A stretch of DNA of 54,491 nt from Planctomycetota bacterium (GTDB taxonomy: Bacteria > Planctomycetota > UBA1135 > GCA-002748355): the NCBI GenBank assembly GCA_011321845.1, contig DROQ01000216.1:1-54491 (forward strand). The letters are read 5' to 3'. A program made the translations under genes and the position numbers. How positions within the stretch are numbered: the stretch's first letter is position 1; every line of letters begins with the position of its first letter. The notes beneath the pieces were generated by a model. That model was not told the DNA's origin and did not search any database. It saw only the letters and a program-made list of their open reading frames with translations. Shown piece by piece: positions 23,164-27,210 of the stretch.

Positions 23164-24412
23164 AGCGCCGGGGCGCGAAGCGCGCGGCGGAAGGGAGTTC
23201 GCTGCGCCCTTCGGTCATCAGCTCGCAGCAGAGCTTCCCCGCCAGAAAACCAAAGCCCATTCCATAGCCGTTGAACGCGCAGCAGAGAAACTCTCCCTGC
23301 TGCCCTGGGATGGGGCCGATGAGCGGGAGCCCGTCCGGGGTTCCCGCCATGATCCCCGTCCAGACCCTTTCGATACCGGCCGAGGCGGCTTCTGGAATGT
23401 GTTCTTGGAGCCAGGCCCAGAGGTTGCGAGTAATCTCCGGGTTCACTCTGGAATCATCCATGGTTCCTGTTTCCTCACCTTTGACGCTCCAACGCATGCC
23501 ACCCAGCGTGAGCCGGTCTCCGTGTTTGCGAAAGTACTCGTAGCAAAAGTGGGAGGACATGGCCCAACAAGGGATCCTGGCGCTGAGCTTGGAGTCCAGA
23601 ACTCCCGTCAACAAAACCTGCCCGCGGAAGGGAAACACCACCCGGTCGAGAAAACCGCTTCGGTCCAGTTGCGGCGCGAGGGCGGAGCTCGCGTGGACGA
23701 TCATGCTCGCCTCAAGGGAGAGATCCGAGGCCGTTTTCAGGAGGTAATTCCCAGCTTCTCCCTCGATTGCGAGGACCTCCTCCTGTTCCCGGATCCGCCC
23801 CCCTTCTTTTTCAAAGGCTTCGGCCAGCCCGCGGACAAAGGCTGCGGGTGCGAAGATCGCTTCACCGGGCACAAAGAGCCCCCCGTGAAACCCCTTGGCC
23901 CACTCCGCCTTGCGCCCCAGCTCTTCCCTCGTCCAGAGGCTGTGAGGGATTCCCTCCTTTTCCATGAGGCGGGCGCTCTCCACCAGCTCTCTTTGCTCGG
24001 ACTCGCTGATGGAGAGGCGGAGCCCTCCCTCTTCCTTCAACTCGCAGGAGATCCCAAGCGTCCGGATCGCCACCTTGGTCTCCTCGGAGTTCCGCTCCAG
24101 AAACTCCCATAGCCTCCGGCTCTCCTCTTCACCGAATTGGGAAACGAGGCGGTTCAGGTGTTCTCCCAGTCCCAGCAGGATCTGTCCATCGTTTCGTCCA
24201 CTGGCGCGGCTCGCGATCCGATTCTTTTCGAGGAGGAGTACCGAAAGGCCCGCGCGCCGGGCGTGGAAAGCCGTTGCGACTCCGGCGATTCCTCCGCCGA
24301 TGACGCAGATGTCCACCCTTGGCGGTGCCGCGTCCCGGCGGGCGGTGGATCGAGGCAGCTCCGCCAGCCAGATGGGTTCGTCACTTTCCGTTTGGGCAGC
24401 TTTGGAGGTCAT
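23156..24412 (-). CDS. FAD-dependent oxidoreductase of the DAO (glycine/D-amino-acid oxidase) family
   Basis: The protein is 418 aa. The FAD-binding Rossmann motif VIGGGIAGVATAFHARRAG starts near residue 37 (GGGIAG at 39-44), with an acidic residue at the end of the second strand (LLLEK). The RxSGRNDGQ segment (near 69) and the C-terminal GIMAGTPDGLPLIGPIPG and AFNGYGMGFG are typical of amine/amino acid oxidases such as gamma-glutamylputrescine oxidase. The ATG overlaps the upstream peptidase stop (ATGA) with GGAG before it. The substrate is likely an amine or amino acid. Confidence 0.82.
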   Translation of the reverse strand: MTSKAAQTESDEPIWLAELPRSTARRDAAPPRVDICVIGGGIAGVATAFHARRAGLSVLLLEKNRIASRASGRNDGQILLGLGEHLNRLVSQFGEEESRRLWEFLERNSEETKVAIRTLGISCELKEEGGLRLSISESEQRELVESARLMEKEGIPHSLWTREELGRKAEWAKGFHGGLFVPGEAIFAPAAFVRGLAEAFEKEGGRIREQEEVLAIEGEAGNYLLKTASDLSLEASMIVHASSALAPQLDRSGFLDRVVFPFRGQVLLTGVLDSKLSARIPCWAMSSHFCYEYFRKHGDRLTLGGMRWSVKGEETGTMDDSRVNPEITRNLWAWLQEHIPEAASAGIERVWTGIMAGTPDGLPLIGPIPGQQGEFLCCAFNGYGMGFGFLAGKLCCELMTEGRSELPSAARFAPRRFT

Positions 24413-25845
24413 TTCACTCCGCACCATTTGCGCCACTTCATTTCCAGTTCCTTGAGCGTGATCCCCAGGTTCCGATTGCAAGCCTGGTCGATCAGCAAGG
24501 GGGTGCCCCCGGGGAGGATTCCCACATCCCGAGTGAACGCCAAAAAAAGGTCCTGCCTGAAGCGTTCATGAATGAAGGCGATCAGCGAAGCGCTGAGGAG
24601 GTAGGCCTCCTCGGTGCTGAGAGGAGTCTCTTCGTTTTCCTTCAGCTCTTGGAGGGAAGTGGTTTCGATCAGTTCCCGAAGGGAGGGTGTTTTCTTGGAT
24701 CTGAGAAGGTTTCGGGCCAGACGTCGGATGGGTACCTTGCGTTGTCGCATCTCGATCCAGTCGGCCAGCCCTTCTTGGAACCAGGCTCCCCCTCCGTCGA
24801 GACCGAGGGAACCTTGTACGAATTGGTGAGTCCCCTCGTGGAAATGGACCGGCGCCTTGGGGCTGTCGAACCAGGTCGAGTAGTGAGGACCCCAGGCGAA
24901 ACCGTCCACCTTCTCTGCCCAGGGGCGTGCGATTCCTCGATCCAGGGCGTCCAGGACAAAGGCCCCCCGGTTTCGGTGCAAGAAGACCACGAGCGGAGAG
25001 AATCGGGTCCCCTTTGTCAGGAGAGGACCGAACTCCTCGAGCAAACAAGGGATGAGATCCTTTTCGAGGGTCTGTTGCAGGGAAAGGGTCCCGCTCTTCG
25101 GAGCGTCCGAATAGATGTGGTAGTGGGGAGAGATGTAGGTCTCTACTTTGTGATCCTGGGGGGGAGGGAAGCCCAGTTGCATTTCCCGTAGCCGGAGGGC
25201 TTCCTCGATATTGCCCGCCCGTGTTCCGCTTCCCTTGGGGAGCATTTGGAGGGAGGAGAGGATCGAGTGCGCCGCGTCGATGACGGCGGGATGGGGGTTG
25301 CCCGGGAGTCGCACCGAGAGGGTCCAAACCTGCCTGTCGATCCAAATGTGGAGACTGAGGTATTTGCTCCCAGTCTCTTGATCCACTCTCTTCACTTTGG
25401 CGGCAAGGAACCCGAACTTGGGGATCGAGTGGATCTCTTGAAAGTGGTTGTTGTAGTGGAGACGGAGGAGGGAGCGGCTGATCGTCGAAAACCCACGGGA
25501 GGGTCGATACCAATCGATTGTGAGTTGTTTTCCTCCCACGCGCCCATGGTACCTCTTTGGGTTCTGGTTCCTCTGGTCGGGGTAGGGGATGAATCCGGGG
25601 GGCAGAAGGAAATGGGAGAACCTCTGCTGGAGATGGATTTTCTTCCAGTTGGGATGACTCGTTTCCTGGGTCTCCTGAGGCAAGGGTTTCTTTTGGAGAC
25701 CTTCTCTCTCCAGGGGATTCTGCGCCTGGACAGCCCGAATGCCGACAAGGAGGATCGTTAGGCTCAGGAGGGGGAGCATTCGCTGGAAACATCCTTGAGA
25801 TTGGGGAAACCTGCGGTTGGACGTTCTTGGGGGGGTATCAGTCAT
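24409..25845 (-). CDS. Secreted HExxH metallopeptidase-like protein (DUF1570-like)
   Basis: The protein is 478 aa as given. A hydrophobic signal (LPLLSLTILLVGIRAVQAQ) lies at residues 24-42; a second ATG at 25779 starts directly at it and has AAGGATG before it, so the shorter form is equally possible. The catalytic motif HEGTH is at 336-340 and a third ligand Glu358 lies in WFQEGLADWIE, the gluzincin layout. Residues 65-200 form a separate beta domain. It may cleave peptides outside the cell. It is coupled to the FAD oxidoreductase by an ATGA overlap and follows a strong terminator, so it needs its own promoter or read-through. Confidence 0.7.
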   Translation of the reverse strand: MTDTPPRTSNRRFPQSQGCFQRMLPLLSLTILLVGIRAVQAQNPLEREGLQKKPLPQETQETSHPNWKKIHLQQRFSHFLLPPGFIPYPDQRNQNPKRYHGRVGGKQLTIDWYRPSRGFSTISRSLLRLHYNNHFQEIHSIPKFGFLAAKVKRVDQETGSKYLSLHIWIDRQVWTLSVRLPGNPHPAVIDAAHSILSSLQMLPKGSGTRAGNIEEALRLREMQLGFPPPQDHKVETYISPHYHIYSDAPKSGTLSLQQTLEKDLIPCLLEEFGPLLTKGTRFSPLVVFLHRNRGAFVLDALDRGIARPWAEKVDGFAWGPHYSTWFDSPKAPVHFHEGTHQFVQGSLGLDGGGAWFQEGLADWIEMRQRKVPIRRLARNLLRSKKTPSLRELIETTSLQELKENEETPLSTEEAYLLSASLIAFIHERFRQDLFLAFTRDVGILPGGTPLLIDQACNRNLGITLKELEMKWRKWCGVK

Positions 25846-25883: not shown

Positions 25884-25917
25884 AAAAAAAAAGACGGGCT
25901 GTCTAGGACAGCCCGTC
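25884..25917 (-). terminator. Perfect intrinsic terminator at 3' end of the RNA candidate
   Basis: An 11-bp GC-rich stem (GACGGGCTGTC, 25893-25903 with 25907-25917) with a 3-nt loop is followed on the minus strand by nine T residues. It lies 39 nt before the peptidase start. It is the best intrinsic terminator in the window. Confidence 0.85.
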
Positions 25918-26075
25918 ATTCCCTGCCATTGTTTCCCTCAAGGAGTTTCCCATGCACAACGAAAAGATGCTTTTTGGCGTCGGCGCCTGAACCGACGCCA
26001 AAAAGCTTCTGTTAGTCTTTCTCCGAACCGTTCGGAGTCCCGACCAACAGGTCCCACCGTTGTGCTCTCCTTCTA
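25884..26075 (-). ncRNA. Candidate structured RNA with three-way junction and intrinsic terminator
   Basis: Read on the minus strand, an outer stem (26058-26065 with 25954-25961, GCACAACG/CGTTGTGC, plus 26067-26071 with 25941-25945) closes over two arms. Arm 1 pairs 26042-26050 with 26009-26017 and contains an inner 7-bp hairpin (26021-26037). Arm 2 is a perfect 15-bp stem (25969-25983 with 25992-26006). One pair in arm 1 is G-U on the minus strand but A-C on the plus strand, supporting the minus strand. About 40 nt later comes a perfect terminator. No known RNA family is recognised. It could be a free RNA or a leader of the peptidase gene. Confidence 0.6.
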
Positions 26076-26280
26076 GCGACTTGCGTGCCAAAGAGGGCCT
26101 TGGGGAGGCGGGAATTGCCCATAAATCTTCTCTCTTTTCTCAAGCCTTTGAAAGTAAAGGGCTTAGTTGCCCCCTTTCTCTCTCGGCAAAGGCCAAAACG
26201 AAGGGCGGAGGAGAAGATTCCTTCTTTTATTGAGGAACTCTTCCTTTCATCTCAGAGGGCGGCGACGGTTGCCGGACGTT

Positions 26281-27135
26281 CTACTGTCGGATTTCCGTCG
26301 GATTTCCGTCAGTCTCCTCCCTCTTGGCTTCCTCCCAGAGAGAGTCCATCTCCTCCAGGCTTGCTTGGGGGAGCTCCGTACCGAGTTTTTCTTCGATGTA
26401 CCGGAACCTTCGGCTGAATCGGGAAATGGTCTTTCTCAGAGCGGCTTCGGGATCGATGTCCACCTGCCTGGCAAGGTTGACGACCGAAAAGAGGACATCT
26501 CCGAGTTCATGCTCGAGGCGTTGCCTGTCGGGGTTCTTCTTGGAAAGTTCCTCTTCGAGCTCGCCCAGTTCCTCCCGGCATTTGGCGACCGGACCCTCGA
26601 TGTCGGGCCACTCAAAGCCAACCCGGGCCGCCTTGTTCCCTACGCGATAGGCGCGGAGCAGGGCCGGGAGCTTCTCCGGGACCCCATCCAGGACCGAAGG
26701 ATTGGGTGTCCCCTTTGGACCCTGGGCTTTTTTCGAGGCCCGCTCGCTCTGCTTGACTTTTTCCCAGCGGAGGAGGGCTTCTTTGCCCGTTTGGGCTTTT
26801 TCGTCCCCGAAGACATGGGGATGGCGGCGGATGAGCTTGGCGCAGATCCCCTCTCCGATCTCCCTCAGGTCGAAACGTCCCTCGTCTTGGGCGATCCGAG
26901 CGACGAGGAAGAGGTTCATGAGCAGGTCCCCCAGCTCCTCCTGGATCTCCCCGTCTCCTTTCTGTTCCAGGGCTTCGATGACTTCGTAGGCCTCTTCGAG
27001 GATCGGGCCGGTCATCGAGGCAAAGGTTTGTTCCCTGTCCCAGGGGCAACCATTTTTCGCCCGGAGTCGGTCGATGATGCGGATAAGCTCTCCCAGCGCT
27101 TGGAGCCTGGGGTCCTGTGGATTTTCTGGCTTCAT
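26281..27135 (-). CDS. mazG: MazG nucleoside triphosphate pyrophosphohydrolase
   Basis: The protein is 284 aa. It has two MazG domains, as in the long form from E. coli. The first has GCPWDREQT at residues 29-37, EEAYEVIEA near 47 and EELGDLLMN near 66, the metal-binding acidic set. The second has CREELGELEEEL near 180 and LEHELGDVLFSVVNLAR near 205. It hydrolyses NTPs/dNTPs to monophosphate and pyrophosphate, cleaning the nucleotide pool. The ATG at 27135 matches the family start; a longer frame adds 23 residues without support. The long 3' gap to the RNA candidate is otherwise empty. Confidence 0.9.
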   Translation of the reverse strand: MKPENPQDPRLQALGELIRIIDRLRAKNGCPWDREQTFASMTGPILEEAYEVIEALEQKGDGEIQEELGDLLMNLFLVARIAQDEGRFDLREIGEGICAKLIRRHPHVFGDEKAQTGKEALLRWEKVKQSERASKKAQGPKGTPNPSVLDGVPEKLPALLRAYRVGNKAARVGFEWPDIEGPVAKCREELGELEEELSKKNPDRQRLEHELGDVLFSVVNLARQVDIDPEAALRKTISRFSRRFRYIEEKLGTELPQASLEEMDSLWEEAKREETDGNPTEIRQ

Positions 27136-27210
27136 GCGATTCTTATCCCAGAAAGACGGAGGCCCTTCCAGGGCCTGGATCCTGTCGAAATTTGGAGGAC
27201 CCACTCGATC

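Follow-up and report, generated by a model that had tools for sequence, protein, structure and literature searches.

Organization of the locus

The window analyzed here is a 54,491-nt stretch of DNA from a Planctomycetota bacterium. The element under study lies on its minus strand, between mazG (26281-27204, minus strand; Pfam MazG, 2.4e-34), which synteny marks as the conserved upstream neighbor, and a peptidase-like gene without a Pfam match (24409-25845, minus strand), an inconstant partner on the downstream side. The two genes are 435 nt apart, the distance given in a first-pass annotation, which had described a candidate new structured RNA at 25884-26075 in an otherwise empty gap. The gap, however, is not otherwise empty: it contains a sigma54-type promoter (26076-26090), and an array of activator-site-like sequences (26284-26312) overlaps the end of mazG. 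The 5' edge of the segment also has to be moved, from 26075 to a predicted 5' end at about 26064-26065, and the predicted small RNA measures about 182 nt (25884-26065, minus strand) from the predicted start to the end of a U run; it has homologues in eight of eight genomes of the family and a fold z-score of -8.3. The original observation is confirmed, and its interpretation as a new structured RNA is supported. What is conserved across the family had not been singled out in the first-pass annotation: the linker on the 3' side, the arm 3 loop, the flanking signals and a stretch at the 5' end where transcription is predicted to begin.

When 61 genomes were searched at the DNA level, clear matches came from members of the same family, and the element is present in all eight family genomes that are available (Planctomycetota MAGs, here G000 to G007), whose loci were inspected in the orientation of the RNA. 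Across 154 genomes of the order, a motif search returned these eight and no others. With a covariance model, no further credible match was obtained in the order, nor in a phylum-wide sample of 392 genomes, a scale at which the filters can lose weak matches. The weak covariance-model matches that were obtained (L063, L066 and L084-L086) were rejected as distant homologues because they have neither the linker nor a family-like promoter placement (see below). Motif matches in Synechocystis, Streptomyces, Bryocella, a Bacteroidetes MAG and a Nitrospirota MAG were also set aside, their number being about that expected by chance (estimated at roughly 4). No homologue was found in viral contigs, and no second copy in the window's genome. 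There are eight homologues in total, including a near-identical pair and two whose arms resist alignment.

Wherever it could be tested, mazG lies upstream of the RNA; in G007 the same order presumably holds across a contig break, the contig with the RNA beginning just before the promoter and another contig ending with mazG followed by the array. A homologue of the peptidase-like gene is found 3' of the RNA in six of the eight genomes and is absent from G004, where a gene on the opposite strand comes next, and from G005; both of these genomes retain the RNA, the promoter and the array. These data bear on the possibility that the RNA is a cis-acting 5' leader, in which case the sigma54 promoter would serve the downstream gene and the leader would act by conditional termination or by masking of the start site. 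Such a role would fit the arrangement in the window, where the gene is on the same strand and starts shortly past the terminator, and the presence of its homologues downstream in the six genomes; moreover, the linker in the window shows complementarity to the gene's start region (-33.7 kcal/mol for the best duplex, a value as good being reached by 1 of 60 shuffles). This complementarity, however, is not conserved: the sister species G001 lacks it at the start region, and in several other genomes it does not exceed that of shuffles. Pairing of the linker with the start of the downstream gene, seen in the window only, was dropped as a candidate interaction. Because the gene is absent from two of the eight genomes while the RNA is retained, the RNA is not simply its leader, and an independent RNA is favored; a riboswitch or other cis-acting leader, whose association with the downstream gene would be constant and is broken in G004 and G005, is considered unlikely.

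In the window, the segment complementary to the linker is CUCAAGGAUGUUUCC (25783-25806, minus strand), which pairs with one bulge and is not conserved in relatives. It is closely followed by an in-frame ATG, with which a signal-peptide-like stretch begins (MLPLLSLTILLVG); this ATG, rather than the start at 25845, may be the true start of the downstream gene.

A sigma54-type promoter and an array of putative activator sites

Directly upstream of the RNA, the minus strand carries TGGCACGCAAGTCGC (26076-26090), a sigma54-type -24/-12 promoter and the sole match to TGGCACRNNNNYYGC in the 54-kb window, where 0.11 matches would be expected. An element with the consensus TGGCACG-N4-YTGC is found at the same place in all eight genomes, with GT for GC at the -12 element in G002. 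Transcription is predicted to start 12 nt downstream of the -12 element, at 26064-26065 on the minus strand, which is the edge of a conserved (G)CACAACGG; in every genome that has this 5' end, the 12-nt rule hits the edge of CACAACGG within 1-2 nt. At the other end of the RNA is an intrinsic terminator (25884-25917, minus strand), formed by a GC-rich stem of 11 bp and nine U at 25884-25892, the nine Ts of the original description. A GC-rich hairpin of differing sequence occupies the same place in all eight genomes, the U run being weak or absent in G006 and G007. Promoter and terminator hairpin bracket the RNA in the eight genomes and, since neither was used in building the search model, both lend independent support.

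All eight genomes encode sigma54, seven of them with more than one match, and each has 9-24 matches to the sigma54-activator domain. In most, the sigma54 DNA-binding domain is matched at two separate places, so that sigma54 seems to be duplicated. The window's genome has four strict sigma54 promoter matches, among them G000:C36:36868-36883 and G000:C114:9117-9132, which lie about 0.5-1.1 kb downstream of activator-domain genes. Six family genomes (G000:C209, G001:C83, G002:C4, G003:C83, G005:C332 and G006:C395) also carry a sigma54-activator domain in an open frame of about 1,880-1,950 residues, much longer than the usual activators and perhaps representing a single giant regulator that is conserved.

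Upstream of the promoter, at or just past the mazG stop codon, sites of the form CCGWCGGA-NN-TCCGWCGG are found, with units every 11 bp, that is, about one helical turn. In the window the array consists of two overlapping activator-site-like 18-mers, CTGACGGAAATCCGACGG and CCGACGGAAATCCGACAG, 11 bp apart (26284-26312, minus strand). As a sequence motif in the 11-bp register it is found in all eight genomes, degenerate yet in register in G001. Exact matches to CCGACGGANNTCCGACRG number four across the eight genomes, all at the RNA locus, and when two mismatches are allowed the matches elsewhere are at background level. Judged by its sequence, the array is a putative site for an enhancer-binding activator; a motif scan of the window and of the neighboring loci found no activator gene beside the RNA. 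A simple scan for upstream inverted repeats gave results not above shuffles in most genomes, and these repeats were dropped in favor of the 11-bp array. In the window the 11-bp repeats overlap the last codons of mazG and in relatives they follow its stop codon, so that the end of mazG differs between species.

Fold of the predicted RNA

The minus strand of the segment (25884-26075) folds with -95.7 kcal/mol, against a shuffle mean of -58.2 (z -8.3). The plus strand folds about equally well (z -8.6), and fold energy hence gives no direction, which is provided instead by the terminator, the promoter and the wobble pairs of the homologues. The outer stem P1, in which GCACAACGG pairs with UCGUUGUGC (closing the span 25954-26065, minus strand), is 9 bp long in the genus of the window, the other genomes of the family having a much shorter one; the compact three-way junction proposed at first is well formed within that genus but not across the rest of the family. 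Arm P2 (26009-26050, minus strand) is made up of CUGUUGGUC/GACUAACAG and an apical hairpin. In P2, 95.6% of the pair cells are kept, mostly through one-sided G-U changes, and covariation is not above that of shuffles. As the G-U pairs would be A-C mismatches on the other strand, P2 favors the minus strand.

Arm P3 (25969-26006, minus strand) ends in a UCAGGC loop that is invariant in the eight genomes. The homologues do carry compensatory changes, the check proposed by the first-pass annotation: in P3, 7 of the 12 pairs are changed on both sides. The covariation score of this arm is 0.522, against 0.245 in shuffles, and none of 500 shuffles reached 0.522, in a test that is small (six sequences) and whose shuffles do not remove relatedness. 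The outer stem, the two-part arm and the GC-rich terminator were recovered as described, and the third arm is long and near-perfect. In G005 and G002 the arms cannot be aligned with those of the other genomes, and the RNA folds into arms of its own.

The stems thus vary in sequence yet keep their pairing, and the loop and linker are more conserved than the stems. This pattern is of interest with regard to a mobile palindromic repeat (MITE or REP-like) or hairpins formed by chance, either of which might produce strong inverted repeats and a plus strand that also folds well. Copy number and synteny contradict such an origin, the element having no second copy in the window's genome and a fixed position after mazG; with a conserved promoter and terminator, and with loop and linker conserved beyond the stems, it appears extremely improbable.

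The linker and the 5' end

The most conserved segment in all eight genomes is the linker that joins the outer stem to the terminator, GGGAAACUCCUUGAGGGAAACAAUGGCAGGGAA; in the window this invariant stretch of about 33 nt reads AUGGGAAACUCCUUGAGGGAAACAAUGGCAGGGAA (25919-25953, minus strand) and has three GGGAA repeats 14 nt apart. Next in conservation are the UCAGGC loop of arm 3 and the 5' end, CACAACGGUGGGA, the latter in six of the eight genomes. The GGGAA repeats are kept in nearly all genomes, and an additional GGGA is found near the 5' end of the RNA.

The linker could be conserved as a small peptide gene, with the RNA as its mRNA: in the window it would encode MGNSLRETMAGNDGLS, and an AUG opens the linker in five genomes, in four of which the frame stays open throughout. 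In G004, G006 and G007, however, the frame is interrupted by single-base indels, three genomes have no AUG and the frames end differently; contradicted by the frame-breaking indels, a peptide gene in the linker is very improbable. The linker also contains CUCCUU, complementary to ribosome-binding sites. A small test with the genes of the window yielded no target, and linker complementarity showed no preference for start regions over the coding background, and a role as a general binder of ribosome-binding sites was rejected on this basis.

Hfq (PF17209) and CsrA (PF02599) gave no match in any of the eight genomes, with control genomes positive for both; as four of the eight genomes are at least 90% complete, the absence of both proteins is likely to be real. 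An Hfq-dependent small RNA and a CsrA sponge were both rejected for this reason. A variant of trans action is that the three spaced GGGAA repeats serve as a sponge for an RNA-binding protein, in a manner similar to CsrB/RsmZ. The 14-nt spacing of the linker repeats in nearly all genomes, together with the further GGGA near the 5' end, would agree with this role. However, such motifs are known to be read by CsrA, which is absent from all eight genomes, the Hfq route is excluded too and the protein would have to be a novel one, so that we regard a sponge as unlikely. It is quite unlikely that a dedicated sigma54 activator has this RNA as its main output and that the RNA titrates an undescribed protein reading the spaced GGGAA repeats; if true, titration would be a functional stand-in for global control of the Csr or Hfq type in bacteria without Hfq and CsrA.

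A candidate trans-acting small RNA

Considering what can be read from the sequences, namely conservation, the changes in arm 3, the promoter and array motifs, the terminator hairpin, synteny and the missing Hfq and CsrA matches, we propose that the locus is probably a stand-alone sigma54-controlled small RNA gene, activator-dependent and Hfq-independent, whose product acts in trans. Transcription, activator binding and trans action are predicted steps of this scheme. Sigma54 polymerase would bind TGGCACG-N4-YYGC and would be switched on by an enhancer-binding activator seated some 110-220 bp upstream on the CCGWCGGA-NN-TCCGWCGG array. The transcript would begin at (G)CACAACGG, fold into two arms and stop at its own terminator, and would then act in trans, through its invariant UCAGGC loop and linker, independently of Hfq and CsrA. 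As to how the linker may work, base pairing with mRNAs is slightly favored over protein titration by the GGGAA repeats.

Relation to known small RNAs

No family of Rfam 15 was found above its gathering threshold in the window, including the Qrr, GlmY, CrcZ and CsrB-type families, and a permissive search of the segment to E=10 gave no credible match, only generic hairpins (the best, mir-129, at 26.5 bits against a threshold of 48.6). Among open-licence papers we found no description of small RNAs of this kind in Planctomycetes. Catalogued small RNAs are few in this group: in one review, the distinct annotated ones of Planctomycetes, Verrucomicrobia and Chlamydiae add up to 8 (PMC9029176). The RNA described here comes with its complete control region, an activator array that seems private to it and a conserved segment as candidate working part. 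In genomes with no detectable Hfq or CsrA, it offers a concrete starting point for studying RNA regulation that does without the usual chaperones.

Control by sigma54 and an activator, an intrinsic terminator and a highly conserved region are features of Qrr (Vibrio, with LuxO) and of GlmY (enterobacteria, with GlrR), which in their own hosts depend on Hfq or RapZ. The planctomycete RNA, whose sigma54 and activator control is predicted, shares these features with Qrr and GlmY but has no Rfam match. With CsrB, RsmY and RsmZ it shares several conserved unpaired motifs containing GGA, whereas CsrA is absent from its eight genomes and, here too, there is no Rfam match. CrcZ and CrcY of the Pseudomonadaceae are transcribed from an RpoN promoter switched on by the enhancer-binding protein CbrB (PMC6292655); the resemblance lies in the predicted sigma54 (RpoN) promoter and activator control and in the repeated unpaired motifs, but CrcZ and CrcY antagonize Hfq-Crc, and in the planctomycete genomes Hfq is absent, the repeats are GGGAA and Rfam gives no match. 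For Pxr, a small RNA of Myxococcus xanthus, a sigma54 promoter is predicted, with an enhancer-binding region upstream of it, and the host has no Hfq (PMC5684412). Like Pxr, the RNA described here is small, structured and taxonomically restricted, with a sigma54-type promoter and upstream sites in a host without Hfq; unlike Pxr, which follows the activator gene pxrR, it follows mazG, and it belongs to a different phylum. No sequence relation between the two is apparent in a comparison by description. As there is no description in the open-licence literature and no sequence relation shown to known sigma54 small RNAs, we have filed the element as a new RNA family; sigma54-controlled small RNAs as such are already known, and the likeness to them is one of control principle, not of sequence.
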